From the NCBI GenBank assembly GCA_000151295.1, contig GG745342.1, forward strand, positions 1,042,515-1,106,514: a stretch of 64,000 nucleotides of DNA, given 5' to 3'. Under the pieces are notes generated by a model. The model did no database searches. It was not told the origin of the DNA and saw only the letters and a list, made by a program, of their open reading frames with translations. The DNA comes from Allomyces macrogynus ATCC 38327 (taxonomy: Eukaryota; Blastocladiomycota; Blastocladiomycetes; Blastocladiales; Blastocladiaceae). The position numbers and the translations under genes are program-made. This document shows, piece by piece, positions 54,912 through 64,000 of the stretch (the stretch's first letter is position 1; each line of letters begins with the position of its first letter).

Positions 54912-56200
54912 ATGAGTGCTGCGCTCTCCTCGCAAATGGAGACGTTGGAGTTGGAGAAGGGAACGCCCAATTCAACGGCACACCACGTCTGTTGCGACTG
55001 TCTTCCACACGGACCCCAAGAACGAAGCTCTCGACATTTCTCTCACGCCTGCACAGCATGTATCGGCCATCGAGGCGCTCCCGATCAATGTGAAAAACCG
55101 CATCGCCAAGTGTTTCGTGACCCCAGGGTTTCATGGGATGACCTGGTACGACACCACCGTCGCTCTTGCACAGACGTCACCATACTGGTATGCATCAGCG
55201 CTGGACGCAGCTATCCGGTATGCTTATGGGATTACGACCTTGCACAGCGGCTAGAACGTCCCGGGTATTGGTTTTACTGCATTCGGACGACCGATTGGTC
55301 ACTTGGTTGCAGCTCCACACGCCGATCCGCCGCATGTGTACCTCGTGCTCGAGGCACGACCTGTTGCTGAGGCCATTCCCACTGAAACATTGGAGAACAT
55401 TGCAGAGCCCCAAAATGGTGGCACTCACCATGTACACTTTATTACGTCGTGGACCCGCCTCCCGCTGACGGCTCTGCGTGGCCACGTTTGCATTGATCCC
55501 GAGTTTCGTCTTGCACATGTGCCACAAAATATCACGTCCATCAAGATGTTCAAGGACAATGATAATGATGACGGCATGCCAACCTGGTCCCAATACCTGT
55601 TGCAACTGCCAGTCACACTTCACTCTCTCGACGTGGAGATTCTGGGTAATGGTGAGGACGACCTTGCTTCTGCACTCTGTAAACTCAACCAACTGTGCAC
55701 GCTCAAGGTGATAAAGAGATGGGCCCAGGTGTCGGAGTCCTATAATTGGCAAGCCTTTTTTGCCTCTATCTCATGCTTGATTCAAACAATTGAGTGGGCA
55801 GTTGACAGCAACAATGCTGCAAGCGACCAAGTATGACGCTGCCATTTCCGGCTCTCAAGGATATCGAGTATTACGCAGAGAGCCACTCGAAACAACCTGG
55901 ATGGTTCCTCGCATCCATTGCTGCACCGAACCTGACATGTCTCACGATTCACTTCTTGGATGAATCATGGACTCGGGCTGAAGTTGGCGTGATTGCGCGC
56001 CAGCTGCCCAAGTTTCCCGCACTCCACAAGCTTTACCTTCTTGGTGGGGTTAGTGAAGTGGGGGAGCGCCCTGCAGCGAATCGTGCTGCTCGCAGGCTGG
56101 TCCAGCCCTTGTTGAGAGGGATTCCCACGTCAGTAGTGATGCTCACCGTGAACTTTCGATTCGAGAAGGATGTCAACGATAGCGACAAGGTCTGCATCGT
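54912..56200 (+). pseudogene. Leucine-rich (F-box/LRR-like) gene, interrupted
   Basis: Three coding-like blocks follow each other in different phases. An ATG at 54912 leads into a block with NEALDISLTPAQHVSAIEAL, needing a frame change or a 34-nt intron near 54990. An in-frame TAG lies at 55252-55254. Then come PADPPHVYLVLEA-type sequence, VPQNITSIKMF, LPVTLHSLDVEIL and LCKLNQLCTLKVI, the spacing of irregular leucine-rich repeats. A further frame change near 55835 leads to FPALKDIEYYAES and APNLTCLTIHFLDES. No F-box was verified. The AT content is higher than in neighbouring genes. It resembles lineage-specific LRR proteins of fungi and looks recently inactivated. Unusual very short introns would be the alternative. 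Confidence 0.5.
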
Positions 56201-56383
56201 CGCCGCACGCACTGCCCCAGCGCCACGGCCAGCAAGGGCAGCACCAACCCGGCCAGCACCGCCACCACCCGCTCCATCGCATCGTGCTCTCGCCCTGGCC
56301 GAGGGTGCCGCGACAACTGTCGAGCAGGCGGGTGGGCTGCTGGGCTCGCTCCAAAAGGCAACGGCACCACTAAGACGAAGAGC

Positions 56384-56593
56384 TTGCTCGCTGCCGGGGC
56401 CAAGAAGGTGACGCCGACCGGCAAGAAGGCCGCGTCGATCAAGGCTCCGGACAAGGCCCTAAAGGTCGTCGCCAAGCCCAGCCACGCCGCGTTCAAGAAG
56501 ACGAGGGCTGCCGCGCCTCCACAGCCGGCAGCGATCGCCAGCAAGGCCCACGCGGCGGCAGTAGCAGCGGCAGCGGCCCCGGCCGTGCAATAG
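56384..56593 (+). other. Lys/Ala-rich open frame, uncertain
   Basis: A frame with VTPTGKKAASIKAPDKALKV followed by Ala-rich sequence and a stop at 56591-56593 resembles a histone H1-like basic tail. The opposite strand of the same bases is open too and very hydrophobic, so composition alone could explain both. No start exon was found. Confidence 0.25.
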
Positions 56594-56782
56594 CGCGACG
56601 GAGACTTGAATCTCGTGCAGTTGACACCGTTGAGCGATTTTCTGGTCGCGGTGCAGGTACATGTGGTGCAAACGCGTACGTGGGGTGCCAACGGATGGGA
56701 TGGGTTGCTGGATTGCAAGACGAACCAACTGAATTCTCTGTTTCGGCGGTTTTGTAGGTGATATGGAAGCGAACTGGGCGTG

Positions 56783-57668
56783 AGAGGGGCCTACAACGAG
56801 ACTCCCGAACTTGATCAGCTTGCTCGCTTCTTGTACGCTCGCGACAGTGCCTCTCCGTTATTTTTTGTTCCTGATAGTCGGTCACTGACGACCTGATTCG
56901 TGGCGCTATGATCCAGATTCCACCACCTTCTCGACCCGACTACCCTTGTCGCGTTTTTGCAACCGCGGTACCCCAACGTCCCGCTCTGCGTGGAAAGCCT
57001 GCAAATGCTCTTCCGGCTCCCGCGCGACATGAGACGGCCGATTGACCTCCACCTGCTCCAAGTGCACCTCGACAAGCTACGTCGCGTCAAGTCGCAGCAC
57101 GGTAGCCGCGTGCAGTACCGTGTCTTCATCTATGCTCGACCTGAGCAGTTGGCCGCGTATCAGAGTGAGCACGGCGACCTGGCCACGCTCGTTCCGTGGC
57201 TCCGTGGATCGTTCCCGGTCATCATTGTCCCGACCCGGCTTGACGACCCGTTCCGGCGAGTGCCCATTGATCGCACGTTTGCGAGCGCGATTGCGCAAGA
57301 CGCAGCGGTATTGTTTCCGGATCAGATGCCCGAACTGCCCGGTGGGCTGGCCATGCACCGTATAGTGACAGCAAGGCCGGGACCGAGGTGTGCGAGCGTT
57401 CGTTAATTGCAGCAAACCCGCTTCGCATTTGAACTGACCGAAAACACGCCGTGGATCATAGACGATCGACTACACGATGGCGTGGCAGCTCATGGGAGAG
57501 GAAGAGCATCCGCCGGCCGCCGCGATTGTCATGGGCACCTTTGCTGTCGGTCTGCGAAACTTGACGGCCACGCTGCACCACCGCGGCAACATGTGCGCGC
57601 TGCGCGCGGCCGACGTGGACGAGCTCTTGATGCTTCACACTTGGGTGTCGATGTGGTGTACGTGGTGA
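56783..57668 (+). pseudogene. Unidentified broken gene
   Basis: Coding-like blocks: NETPELDQLARFL, a possible intron (about 56835-56921), then HLLDPTTLVAFLQPRYPNVP, ESLQMLFRLPRDMRRPIDLH, SFPVIIVPTRLDDPFRRVP and PELPGGLAMHRI. After a possible intron to about 57411 comes QTRFAFELTENTPWI, then a frame change to MAWQLMGEEEHPPAAAIVMG and ADVDELLMLHTW, ending at 57666-57668. There is no in-frame ATG at the 5' end and one frame break near 57475. The blocks read like an ordered cytosolic enzyme or scaffold, but no family was recognised. Confidence 0.4.
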
Positions 57669-57881
57669 TTCGCTTGTGGAGACCGGAGCGAGGACATCAA
57701 CAACTTTATTTATCAGCACTGTTTTCCGGTATGGAATGGAGACCGGAACGAAGGAAGCGACGTGCAAATACTGTCGACATTACAGCAAGTAGGGCTCCTT
57801 TTGCGAGCAGTGTATTTCGTGAGCGCTGCAATGAAACTTCATAATACTACGACGATACGTCCAACAACGAACTAGCCCGTC

Positions 57882-60426
57882 TCAATCGTCCTTGTGTGCC
57901 GCGACGTGACGATACTCGCCCGTTGCCGTGCTCACCGACCGTTCGGTCGTGGCGCGCCACACCCACCACCCAATGGCGCCAATCCCGAGCACGCCCACGA
58001 CCACGGCCGCGATGGGCCCGACCAAATCGCCTCCGGCCATCGTCACGAGCCATTCGCCGCGCTGCGCGCGACTGCCCGGCACATACGTCCCGCGGTACTG
58101 ACCCCGCTCGCGCGTCGCGACCTGGTGTGCGACATCGTCCAGCGCCTTGGCAATCTCGGCCGTCTTGAACGCGAGAGGCTTGCCGTCCGGGCTCGTGCGA
58201 TAGACCATGTCTTTCGCGGGCACGGCCAAAGCAACGCGCGGCAATTCCGCGGGGGTCACATCAAACATGCGCTGCGCGTAGGCCGCGTACTGCGCGCCAT
58301 TGAGCCAGACAAACCGCACGTCGACGCCGTGCATTTGCAGCCCTTGGTGCACGAGCGACTCAGCGAGCCGGTGCAAAATATCGCGCTCGGCGTCCGAGTG
58401 CGCCGGGTCCAGAACCCCCACGACCACGACGCGCCGCGCGCGTGGGCCGTCGAGATCCACACCGTCCATGAGCTCGAGCGCGTTCGCCGCCGTCAGTTCC
58501 GGGACCAGCGGGTACCGGCGCGCGCGCACAAACTCGACGATCCGCGACACCGTGAACGCAAACCGCTGCGCCTGCTCGCGCTTGGCGCGCTCGCGCGCCT
58601 CCTGCTCGAGCTCATCGACCGCGTCCTCGCCGTCAGGCAAAACAAACGCCTTTTGCGGACCCGGCTTGTACTCGTCGGCGGGCCGGTCGGCGGGAGCCAC
58701 GGGCGGGAACCGGTCGGTTTCCGGGAACCCACGCCGTGCGACAAGAATCGCCGGGCGTTCGCCCGGGGTGATGCCCGGGTCGGCCGACGCGAACAGGCCC
58801 GTCGTGCCGCCGACCGACCACGTATCGGCAGCATCGAGGAAGGCGCACATGGCCTCGGACGTCGTGTGCGCGTCCATGGCGAGAACCACGGCCACGTCGT
58901 GCTCGGCGCGCATGCGATGGAATTCGGCGGCGGTCACCATTTGCACGGGTCTCGGGATCAGCGCCGCGTGCGAGAATTCGAGGAGCGCATCCTGCGTGCG
59001 TGGGCCGCGGTAGTCGCGCGAGATCCCGCGCCGCACGAGCTTGATGGTCGGGTACCCGCGAACGAAGAAGCGGTTCGCGAGGTCCACTTCAACGTCGGCG
59101 TTGATGCGACCAACGTTCATTTTACCGGCGAGTTTACGGCCGACGGTTTCGTAGATGGGGAGAAAGGCCTAGAACAGCGAGATTGGGATGAGACCAGCTA
59201 GCAAGCGCATTCAGACAGCAGAGTAGCGCCGGAGACAAAAAAAAAAAATAGAGTGGCAGACCTGGCTTTGCTTGCTCCACGCCGCGTAAAACATGACGAG
59301 CCACGGGCCGCTCTTGGACGTCATTTCCTCGAAATTGTCGCCCGTGAGCTCCACGACGCGGCCGTACTGGCCCCACGTTTTCGTGCGCGCCGCGCGATCG
59401 GCGGCCACCGCCTGGAACTCTTCTGCTTTGGCCGCCAGCGCCGCATCCAAGGCCGCAGAGTGCGCTTCCGAGGGGAAGTCGTGCACGGCGTGCTTGCCGC
59501 CCTGGTGCACCTCGTGCGGAGAATCGTTCAGGACCGAGTCGGCGGCCTGCGCCGCGGCCTTGGCAGCGTTGACCTCGATCTTGGCCGTGGCCGTCGTCAC
59601 GTATTCGAGCAGGGCTTTGGTCGTGCGGTCGCCTTTGTACTCGCCCTTGCGGTGACCCTCGTGAAACAGATACAGAGCTGGTCAGCAGGGGAAGAGGTGA
59701 TCAGTTGGACACGTCGTGAGTAGCGCAAAAATAGAATGGTGAATATACGCACTCGGGAACCCTTCCACCTCATGGCGTCGGCAAAGCGCCTCGTTATCGA
59801 CGCAATCCACCTTGGCCACATAGACTTGCTTGGACTTGCGCCACGGAGCAACGGTCGCGGCCATTTCCTCGTATTTGGGCGCGAGCTGCTTGCAGTGCGG
59901 ACACCATGGTGCTATTCGTGAAACAGTGAAGGATGGTCAGTGGCGGGTCGCAGCGTGGCCAAATGAATTCGCGGTGGACACGTACCGTAAAACTACGTAG
60001 ATCGCAATCCGATGGGCGTTTCCAGGCACGGTCAGGTCGTGAACTGTCAATACATCAAATCCAGCCGTTCTACGCACGTCGACAAGCCTGGAAAAAGGCC
60101 ACAATTGCGCCAAGCGTTAGAAATATTTGCTTCGCATAGGTTTCTCTTCAATCTTGCATTCGGAAAATCATCCAGCTCGCGACTTAACCATACCACGTGC
60201 CCGACGCGACAGACTTGTCGAAGTTGGCGGTTGTCAGCGTGATCACTGCTGTCGATTCGGCGCGCACGACAGGCAATAGGGCCAGCACGGAAGCGACGAG
60301 AAGGAACACGGCCCATTTTGCGCGTGCAAGCCCGTTGCTGGTTGGTGACAGAGATGCGGGTCCGTTGCCGTCTGCTTGTTCATTTCGCAGCAGGCCAAAT
60401 CGCCTTGGCCGGTCGTTCCTGAACAT
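57882..60426 (-). CDS. Membrane-anchored protein disulfide isomerase relative
   Basis: Six exons (60426-60194, 60087-60078, 59992-59986, 59911-59753, 59677-59262, 59168-57882) give 703 codons. PDIs form and rearrange disulfides in the ER. A hydrophobic signal or anchor sits at about residues 35-55. Thioredoxin domain 1 has the active site WCPHCK (after LVDFYAP) and the cis-Pro loop EGFPT. Domain 2 has WLVMFYAAWSKQSQAFL with no CxxC, so it should be redox-inactive, but keeps RGYPT. Further thioredoxin-like folds without active sites follow. Near the C-terminus is a membrane segment (GPIAAVVVGVLGIGAIGWWV) and a short cytosolic tail, an arrangement like TMX3 or yeast Eps1. Exons 2 and 3 are only 10 and 7 nt and encode the residues just before the active site. 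Confidence 0.88.
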
Positions 60427-61054
60427 GCTGATCGTCGAGTCCCAAGTCGCGGGAATACTTTGCAGCGTCTTCGGCCAAGATTGATTTCGGTAAATTGGTT
60501 GGATACGGCCGCGCCTTTGGCAAAGGTGCAGCAGGGCAAGAATTCTGGCCGTTTTATCGCCTCGCCATTGCCGCGCTGCGACCACATCACTGGTCCCTTT
60601 GACCCGCTAGCATGCAAGCTTGATGTTGAACTGTTGATCCTCATCGCAGCCTCCATGCGTGCTCGTCAACAACGATCGATGCAGATGTCTTGATGTCGAC
60701 GACCGCGCACCTGCTGTTCACCAAGCGGATTTATGAGCGGGTTCCCCAAGCTTCTCCTGTGCCAGGCCACAAAGGATGAGCAACCAGCACTCTCGAAGCT
60801 TTGGTTCCACCATTCAGTTTCGGCATTCAGTATCTGGCAGAAAAAGCGGGTGGAGAAACATTCTGAAGTGATCCTCTTCTTGAGACAGGTGCTCAACTCG
60901 CGATTGGTTTTGCTGTGCAGGAACCACACCAATATTGCCTGATGGTCAGGTCCCATTCTGCAACACGCCACTACAAACAAAAATGAAGAGATATACGGCT
61001 AAGATTCAGATCTTAATATAAACTCGTCTGCCTTCAAGGTATCAATCGTGGCCC
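60427..61054. other. 5' flank of the PDI gene and left edge of the mobile region
   Basis: GC falls sharply from about 60730 rightward. No terminal inverted repeat could be fixed by eye. Confidence 0.45.
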
Positions 61055-62540
61055 TTGGCCCAAGTTGTGGGTTTGTTAAGAGCAGCACAACATTCAACAC
61101 CAAGCACAACCACCCAAGGGGTCACACAAAGCGAAAAGCCGTTGCCAGTGCAGAAAGGGCCAAAAGCTGGGCAAGAAAAAGTTGGTGCAGCAGAAGAAAC
61201 TGTGAGTGGGCGCCAAATGCAATCTGTCCACAACAAGAAGCTGGACCCTGAGCCAAAACTGCCAAAGGAGGAAATGAGGAAGCATGTCAAGGTGGGTATT
61301 GAAAAGTACTACGCTTACATGGCGCATTTTCGCAGCAGTGATGAGTGTCAGCGTGTCCAAGGGCCGTCTGATTGCTGGGTTCAGACAATCTGTGTGATTC
61401 AAGAGGAGTTTGATGTTGCAAGGCATGACTTGGCCCAACTGCAGCAGGGAGAGTCGCCTTATGATGACTTGGTGCTGGACCCAGACAAAGTGGCCAAGCT
61501 TGTTGTGGCCACGCCCACCATCATGCCTAACTTCAAGGCTCAGTGGCGTTTTCTCACAATTGACACCAAGGTCATTCACGATTGTTCAGTCACCAAGTCT
61601 CAGAGTATCATGCATTGTGAGCAAGAGCGCATGGAAGAGGAGCTCAAGGCCATGGGTTCGACCATGACATGGAAGGAAGTGCTTGAGGATCTTGACAAGC
61701 TGAATGACATTGTGTTTTGCATCAAGCCAAGCACCTGGCCAATACTTCGACCTGAATACCACAATCCTGGCAATGTTGGAAAACCTACCACTGCTCAAGT
61801 CTGTGCCATTCTTGCCAACAATGTGCCGCCCAACTATATCCAGGACAAGATTCAGACCTGGTATCAAAAGAGTGACAGGCTGAGTGTGCTGAATGCATGT
61901 TTTGGGACATGGCAGGGCATGGGACCAGGCATCTCACTGGCCAGTCTAACTTGACCAAGTGCCTAACAGTTTTGCGCCAGGGGCCTGATTCTCAAGGCCT
62001 ACATGGACAGCAAGCCCACGCTCAAGACACACCAGATGCATGAGTTTCTTGCTGTGACCACATGTTGTCAAGGATGCACAGTGTCATGCAGCATGTGCTG
62101 TGCTCCTTTGTTGCCAAGATGACATTTCGGAAAAACAATTGCAAACAGTCCTTTTGGGACGCCTTGGTTGCATGACTCATGAAGCCCATGGGCGGCTCCA
62201 CCAAGCTGCCACTGATCATGATTGGCAATGCTGGTGCAACAAACCCATGTGGTTGTACCACGCTTGTCAAGCAGTTTATCCAGCAGCTTGTCCACACAGG
62301 TGCTCAGGCCATGCTCGTTGATGAGTATTACACTTCAAAACATGCGCCAACTGTGGAGTGAACCTGGTGCAAGACCCAGATGCATGGGGTTCCAAGCACT
62401 GCAAGGGACCATGTTGTCAATTGATTTCGCATGATTGCAACGCCACCTTCAAATATTTTCCGGGTGGGCATCTGTGACAGGATTGTCGACTGGGATGTGC
62501 CAGCAGCGTGGAAGAACAGTGGCCACCCACTCTTCCATGA
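61055..62540 (+). mobile_element. TnpB/Fanzor-like nuclease remnant (broken)
   Basis: An AT-richer frame from about 61055 to 61954 (EKYYAYMAHFRSSDE, DDLVLDPDKVAKLVVATP, YIQDKIQTWYQKSDRLSVL) is followed, in changing phases, by KQSFWDALV, a TGA at 62173-62175, LPLIMIGNAG, then MLVDEYYTSK and, after a frame change at about 62340, TCANCGVNL with a second knuckle CKGPCC. HDCNAT and SNIFRVGI follow. Thr-Ser-Lys-x-Cys-x-x-Cys-Gly, a second Cys pair, and Asp-x-Asn-Ala ahead of Asn-Ile are the zinc ribbon and last RuvC motif of TnpB and its eukaryotic Fanzor relatives. Fanzors occur in zoosporic fungi and inside several transposon classes. The N-terminal half is not confidently Fanzor. At least one stop and two frame breaks make this copy dead. 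Confidence 0.55.
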
Positions 62541-62599
62541 CTGGCAAGGAATTTATGGTCACAGAGATGCGCTAGCTGCTGTGGCGGCTGCAGCTGTGG

Positions 62600-63640
62600 C
62601 TACCAACAATGTTGACAATTCTGACAATGATGGCGACTTTGATTATGGTGGACCTGGCTCAATGCCTCCCATGCTGCTGCCCCAACCACCGCCAAAGATT
62701 GACACATGCTTGAATGCCATCACAACAGGGGCACTGTCAGACAGTGACACACTCATATCACTCTTTGACCAGGTCATGGACTGGCTGGATGAAGAGGAGC
62801 GCATCAAGATTGCAGAGCGTGTTGAGGCCAAGTCCCAGCTTCTGAATGTCATGGGCTTTATGAATGGCTCCAAGGCCAAGATCTGGTGCGTGTTCCTGGC
62901 TCCTGACAACCTGAAAAGCTCACCCTCTCTCTGTGATGTCTGACAATGGTAGCAACAGATTCTGCCTGACGTTCAATGGCCAGGCGTTCTACAACTGCAG
63001 CAAGAATTATTCCATCAGCATCCTGGCCATTTGCAATGACAACAAGCTGTTCCAGCACTTCATCTTGGGGTACACTGGTGCAACCAATGTTGTGGCCATT
63101 TTCAATGAATCTGGGCTTGTGCTTTAACCTCATCAGTTTTTCCATGCCAGTGAGTACCTGATTGCTGACAAAGTGTTCACTTGCATCCCAACTGTCATCC
63201 TGCTGTTCAAGCATGAGCCTGGTGTCTTTCTCACTGACCAGGAGTCACACTTCAACAACTGCCTGTTGTGTGCGTGCATCCAGATTGAGCATGCATTTGG
63301 GATCCTCAAGGCACAGTTTCAGAGCCTTGATGGGCTCTGCCACATTGTCTTTGCCAAGGAGCATGTCTTCTTGGTTGCCAATTGGGTTTTTGTGACAGTC
63401 ATCTTGCACAACTTGCTCACACTGTTGAATGAGCTGCAACCCAACCCTATTCCCTGGGACGATCTGTTACCGGACCTGGGAGATGATGATGACCTAGCTC
63501 CATTTGTGGATGGGGAGTGTGATGGGCTGTGGCAGCATGACTGTGCAAAGTGCAGTGCCCTGATGCGCTTCCTTGAAAGGCTGGCTGGGCTTGGACTGGT
63601 GGAGGAGGTGGAGCAGATGGAGGGGCTTGAGGTGGAGTGA
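62600..63640 (+). mobile_element. PIF/Harbinger (HARBI1-like) DDE transposase remnant
   Basis: Blocks in order: WLDEEERIKIAERVEAKSQL, GFMNGSKAKIW (the first catalytic Asp, normally GFxDGS, is Asn), a frame change near 62930, YNCSKNYSISILAICND, HFILGYTGATN, an in-frame TAA at 63125-63127, FFHASEYLIADKVFTCIP (second Asp), and IQIEHAFGILKAQFQSLDG (the Glu), then VTVILHNLL. These are the motifs of Harbinger-type nuclease proteins. The C-terminus is acidic (DDLLPDLGDDDDLAPF) and ends at 63640. A stop, a frameshift and the D-to-N change make it inactive. It follows the Fanzor-like remnant on the same strand, so both may belong to one element. Confidence 0.75.
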
Positions 63641-64000
63641 TTGGTGAGGGAAACAGACATGGCTTCATTGTTTTTCACAAAACACGATTTGTTGACAATT
63701 ATGACCCAACTCCAAAAGTGGAAAAAGCAATGTCAAACTCTCACAGGGCACCATGGAACAATATGACAGCCCAAGCAACACACAACCACATCAGCACACA
63801 TCAGGAGTGACATGTCAGATGCAGTTGCAGCAGGGAGGAAAAGAAGGAGAGCTGGCCATGACCATGTCCATTGCCAGCTGGGACTGGCATGCAACCCATG
63901 GTGGTGGAGCATGCCCACAAGCACAATCACGCCTGCTGGCACAGACGCTCAAGCTCCACCTGCAGTTCCACTGCACCTCAAGTCTCTTCATTGTGAGCTC
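63641..64000. other. Right part of the mobile region, cut by the window edge
   Basis: Same lower-GC composition as the transposase remnant. No terminal repeat, tRNA or clear gene. The element probably continues beyond the window. Confidence 0.4.

Follow-up and report, generated by a model that had tools for sequence, protein, structure and literature searches.

A decayed Fanzor-like gene abutting a Harbinger-type transposase remnant in a CpG-poor block of Allomyces macrogynus

The window analysed here is a 64 000-nucleotide stretch of the Allomyces macrogynus ATCC 38327 genome (contig C61:1042515-1106514); the searched assembly comprised 54 Mb. A single low-CpG block was found within the window, from 61001 to about 64386, and it holds the remnants of a Fanzor gene and of a transposase (Table 1). 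Fanzors are eukaryotic relatives of the TnpB RNA-guided nucleases, and an intact member of the present family would be expected, by analogy, to be an RNA-guided nuclease.

Table 1. Features at the end of the window and immediately beyond it (window positions)
Feature	Position	Strand	Remarks
Left flank	56174..61064		Ordinary host sequence; aligns to a segment of contig C58 (79% identity); CpG observed/expected 1.27
Low-CpG block	61001..64000, continuing past the window end to ~64386		Repeat-type
Fanzor N-terminal/middle part	61058..61774	+	Open frame 61022-61954; lacks 5' sequence that copies on C69, C47 and C75 have
Deletion scar	61775..61786	+	RuvC-I stretch with the DPG aspartate gone, judged against P0001 and the C47 copy
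Fanzor RuvC/TNB part with frameshifts	61787..62478	+
Alternative glutamate	62323-62325	+
Zinc knuckles	62343-62357 and 62400-62417	+
RuvC-III HD	62430-62435	+
Fanzor C-terminal tail	62479..62747	+	Cut at 62747; C69 relative ~380 bp longer
Harbinger-type DDE transposase remnant	62748..63640	+	N-terminal part missing; frameshift near 62915-62943; TAA at 63125-63127
Broken open frame	63818-64321, of which 63818..64000 in the window	-	Within the low-CpG block; matches no Pfam family; second copy not found

Judged by its sequence, region 61058-62747 is a Fanzor gene in decay. A first-pass annotation had listed a TSK-TCANCG knuckle, a CKGPCC knuckle and an HDCNAT...SNIF block in the TnpB order. All were recovered on the plus strand in that order, as VDEYYTSK (62317-62340), CANCG (62343-62357), CKGPCC (62400-62417), HDCNAT (62430-62447) and SNIFRVGICD (62449-62478), the five strings being spread over two frames through small indels. 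The reading as a Fanzor-like remnant was borne out by homology: a 229-aa open frame of the relative on contig C69 scored 223 bits on the real region (61000-62750) and at most 29.3 bits in 200 dinucleotide shuffles of it. Against the TnpB/Cas12f zinc ribbon profile (PF07282), the same C69 frame scored 43.2 bits. The proposed profile check was divided in its outcome: the C-terminal part of the window copy, read through with X at two frameshifts, just passed PF07282 (27.1 bits against a cut-off of 26.3), whereas nine unjoined window pieces reached no TnpB/Fanzor profile in the Pfam scan and the 44-aa piece carrying the knuckles matched none. At the DNA level, 61000-62560 matched C69 (85%) and C47 (81%), both in its 3' half, C71 (67%), and shorter pieces on C75, C40 and C47. 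The decay described earlier was evident in the frameshifts, the deletion of the RuvC-I stretch and the truncations.

In the portion of the source available, the marks of a Fanzor are a RuvC-I DPG motif and a glutamate placed six residues ahead of the first CxxC (PMC10711439). The spacing of this alternative glutamate is exact in the C69 copy (DEYYTSKKCAVC). In the window, the glutamate is present 17 instead of 18 bases ahead of CANC, i.e. one base was lost. The window copy has lost the DPG through a deletion between 61774 and 61787, and relatives keep it (IDPG in Allomyces javanicus P0001, VDPG in the C64 locus). An RD at RuvC-III after the zinc finger is also described as a Fanzor motif (PMC3627910, as available in part); the window has HD, with the aspartate retained, and the C69 copy has RD. 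On these signatures, the Fanzor assignment holds for the family and not for each motif of the window copy. A working nuclease or guide RNA is not expected from this copy, which has lost its RuvC-I aspartate along with its 3' end, and it is most likely without present function.

The C69 copy had its best protein relatives in Allomyces javanicus: one protein is 77% identical over 55% of the query, another 62% identical over 60%. A profile of 12 Fanzor sequences (from this genome and A. javanicus) matched 30 solved structures, with the mimivirus TnpB-like protein L79 (PDB 9b0l) at the top (E 1.4e-6) and Parasitella parasitica Fanzor 1 (PDB 9cf0) at E 2.7e-3, both mainly over the RuvC-II/zinc-ribbon/RuvC-III part; the Spizellomyces protein was absent among the 30. 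Several bacterial TnpBs outscored the Parasitella Fanzor 1, so that assignment to Fanzor1 or Fanzor2 is not settled. The viral_contigs were scanned with the Fanzor and with the transposase, and no relative was confirmed for either protein.

The presence of a Harbinger transposase on the same strand was confirmed with the DDE_Tnp_4 profile (PF13359), which matched piece 63128-63637 above the cut-off (E 4e-11, 43.2 bits) and piece 62915-63124 just under the cut-off of 24.8 bits (E 8e-5, 22.7 bits). In the genome scan, the remnant scored 76.0 bits with one stop (TAA) inside. The string GFMNGSKAKIW at 62854 may be the DG box, and about 35 codons are left ahead of this site. The N-terminus must be regarded as missing, since the upstream reading 62425-62747 is Fanzor tail. 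A close relative or second copy of this transposase was not found in DNA and protein searches of the genome, and among 5.8 billion proteins neither a 170-aa piece nor a 296-aa read-through retrieved a relative at E 0.001. PIF/Harbinger transposons are recognized by terminal inverted repeats and a 2-3 bp target-site duplication, and carry a second gene for a Myb/SANT-type DNA-binding protein. The broken minus-strand frame (63818-64321) has a cysteine/histidine-rich stretch and is possibly this second gene. No pair of inverted repeats bounds either the block or the transposase (60900-64700 and 61985-65485 examined); the Harbinger repeats may be gone, since its left end was lost at the junction. 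A separate protein on contig C75 (L029 418-2010, 531-aa open frame, 120.6 bits) is the best-scoring DDE_Tnp_4 protein of the genome. A 5' fragment of a Fanzor is located about 11 kb away, and the window transposase did not recover this protein in DNA or protein searches.

The transposase had been placed 100-200 bp from the Fanzor motifs. The Fanzor homology in fact continues to 62747 and the transposase starts at 62748, with zero gap. Both genes are truncated where they meet, the Fanzor lacking its 3' end and the transposase its N-terminus. The C69 (85%) and C47 (81%) relatives align with the 3' half of the window copy only to about 62747. The copies on C69, C53, C71 and C40 extend beyond this cut point into further tail, without a Harbinger. 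Matches of the C69 copy in the window stop at 62748, and no remaining Fanzor tail was found past the transposase. A 15-bp near-perfect palindrome (62732-62746) ends one base ahead of the junction and is a possible break point.

The CpG observed/expected ratio was 0.31 in the Fanzor part, 0.16 in the transposase and 0.15 in the tail to 64553, compared with 1.27 and 1.29 in the flanks. The Fanzor part kept 33 of 107 expected CpGs and stretch 62748-64400 kept 12 of 107; the levels differ between the parts, yet without a sharp step. Unequal retention fits separate histories of the Fanzor part and the rest. Past methylation of the block is perhaps the cause of the depletion. Two Fanzor relatives are equally CpG-poor (C69, 0.10; C47, 0.20) and three are not depleted (C53, 0.96; C71, 0.76; C40, 0.86). 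Both flanks align to a segment of contig C58, up to 61064 on the left (79% identity, 5.0 kb) and from 64554 on the right (78%, 4.8 kb), and this segment was taken as homeologous. Since both flanks match C58 with other sequence between them, the block counts as inserted, or as a replacement, on C61 when C58 is the reference. The use of C58 as an empty site was ruled out by the 6.8 kb of other sequence that it carries there. That stretch (C58:920292-927116; L051, L052) contains, in the place of the Fanzor/Harbinger block, a pair of open frames on the minus strand, 234 and 235 aa long and similar to each other (57% identity), plus a third stretch related to them. The longest exact direct repeat of the block edges is 7 bp (61064-61070 and 64411-64417). 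A target-site duplication left by insertion of the entire block could look like this, though chance alone would give about 0.6 matches of this kind between the compared stretches (arithmetic), and the repeat was rejected as an insertion mark. The suggested check for shared terminal repeats and target-site duplications thus yielded, at this block, no bounding inverted repeats and only this chance-level match.

At least 12 Fanzor loci were found in the genome, namely the window, C69, C47, C71, C53, C73, C40, C48, C64 near 433 kb, C74, C75 (5' fragment) and C64 near 705 kb (fragment). DDE_Tnp_4 loci also numbered at least 12 (14 rows, two pairs merged), both counts being lower bounds. Among the loci found, the two parts occur together in the window only, the next nearest pair being the one about 11 kb apart on C75; pairing was seen at 0 of the 11 other Fanzor loci and 0 of the 11 other DDE_Tnp_4 loci. 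Ten Fanzor queries gave no match when run against the remaining 11 DDE_Tnp_4 loci, each taken with flanks of 1.5 kb. The window transposase gave none, at E up to 1, in 10-kb stretches around 10 other Fanzor loci (a set that excludes the C64 705-kb fragment and in which L018 and L021 were partly masked). PF13359 matched the window alone among the Fanzor loci, and no transposase domain was found in 20 chosen open frames near the others. Under uniform placement, the expected number of pairs within 1 kb is about 0.005 (12 + 12 loci, 54 Mb; arithmetic), or 0.004 for 10 + 11 loci. With chance adjacency this low, some link between the two parts is needed. Most simply, the link would be nesting in repeat islands followed by deletion; clustering in such islands would raise the chance figure.

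The reading that we consider probable is that separate Fanzor and Harbinger elements met in a repeat island, that their stumps were joined by a rearrangement and that both decayed. A Fanzor element, of a family carried without a recognizable transposase in the other copies found here, and a separate Harbinger would have come together because one inserted into the other or next to it. Next, a deletion or recombination event would have cost the Fanzor its 3' end and the transposase its N-terminus, leaving the stumps in contact at 62747/62748. CpG depletion, presumably by methylation followed by deamination, would have affected the block as a whole, as it did the two closest Fanzor relatives, and both reading frames would have been disrupted. 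Against two elements stand the common strand, the single low-CpG block and an abutment that is unlikely for randomly placed elements. A simpler nested insertion, in which the Harbinger entered the Fanzor tail and the junction lost nothing, agrees with the position of the junction within that tail. It is improbable, given a transposase without its N-terminus, a junction at which a terminal repeat was not found and the absence of the rest of the Fanzor tail after the transposase, where the C69 matches end at 62748. That the motifs are a chance resemblance with no Fanzor present is hardly credible: the unjoined window pieces do match no Pfam TnpB/Fanzor family, as such a resemblance would have it, and the idea was refuted by the DNA matches of 81-85% to copies passing PF07282, by the shuffle control (223 bits against at most 29.3) and by the read-through score above the PF07282 cut-off.

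The first-pass annotation had assigned both parts to one composite element. This would be a Harbinger with Fanzor cargo in which an internal deletion later removed the end of the Fanzor (3') together with the N-terminus of the transposase, and it would account for the same strand, the missing gap, the single low-CpG block, the flanks matching C58, the low chance adjacency under uniform placement and the weak 7-bp repeat near the block edges. It also has a precedent in Mucor MCi-5, where a Fanzor1 and a Harbinger transposase occur together (PMC3627910, as available in part). A composite was not supported by the survey of the genome: there is no further pairing at the 11 + 11 loci, related Fanzor copies reach their 3' end without the window's transposase, the block has no bounding inverted repeats, and CpG depletion is unequal (33/107 against 12/107), though without a sharp step. 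We therefore regard a single composite as unlikely. The more specific proposal of a Fanzor-bearing Harbinger that arose in the Blastocladiomycota independently of MCi-5, had the Fanzor C-terminus and the transposase as adjacent genes of one element, and is now extinct but for this block, is unlikely as well. The transposase's own repeats offer no evidence on a composite here, since only this copy of it was found. That a Fanzor adjoins a transposase does not in itself demonstrate a composite; what decides is whether the pair recurs among the copies and whether the junction is intact, and the probable reading of two joined elements was preferred.

In a full-text search, Fanzor and Harbinger co-occurred in PMC3627910 and PMC12292965. 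The combination of a Fanzor1 with a Harbinger-type transposase has been reported for Mucor circinelloides MCi-5, and three Fanzor1 families (AMa) for A. macrogynus itself (Bao and Jurka 2013, PMC3627910, in the text available). Given these reports, the window pairing is a decayed member of an already known kind. MCi-5 resembles the window in having both genes in one place and no obvious terminal inverted repeats, and differs in comprising five loci, three of them with the transposase, and putative 6-bp duplications (PMC3627910, same portion); the window has a single pairing, with both genes truncated at the junction. The AMa families resemble the present one in being Fanzors with a C4 zinc finger, the best hits of the C69 copy being in A. 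javanicus. The part of the AMa account at hand names neither element type nor transposase, and the comparison with the window is by description only. Spu-1/SpuFz1 of Spizellomyces punctatus is a Fanzor1 without transposase, in which it is like the other Fanzor copies of this genome, which appear to be carried without one; unlike the window's family, for which none were found, it has terminal inverted repeats and intact copies (PMC3627910, PMC10432273, both as partly available).

For the Allomyces genome, the present loci add decayed Fanzor copies. Intact copies elsewhere had been expected to define a guide RNA. Since no intact member of the window's Fanzor family turned up, a guide RNA is not definable from the window. 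A second Fanzor family is represented by three copies (L023 3949-5533, L025 3861-6177, L027 3053-6328). The copies on C53, C71 and C40 have a 3' end common to within about 20 bp, which is a candidate place for a guide RNA, and no terminal inverted repeats were found between their 3' and 5' ends. L027 also contains longer inverted matches (284, 78 and 41 bp), which were taken as an internal duplication; apart from these, the Fanzor families show short inverted matches only. Folding of these three 3' ends gave z-scores of -2.0, -1.6 and +0.4, and 6 of 59 pairs in their alignment had two-sided changes (three sequences only). Since this folding signal is weak and inconsistent, no guide (omega) RNA is claimed.

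Better-preserved Fanzors of the same genome, above all that on C64, would be more useful objects of study. Two long open frames there (L020 1325-3895 and 3978-5657; C64:430324-434656), of 857 and 560 aa, together look like a well-preserved Fanzor, with VDPG, a glutamate six residues ahead of CxxC, a zinc ribbon (49.3 bits), RD and a CpG observed/expected ratio of 1.2. They may include host-gene parts, because L020 900-2400 also matches C73:974435-975918 (78%) and L020 5630-6400 matches C45 (69%). A divergent Fanzor on C74 has its N- and C-terminal parts in long open frames (L022 1692-3128 and 4713-5888) with 1.6 kb between them, in a CpG-depleted block of about 4.7 kb (observed/expected 0.14).
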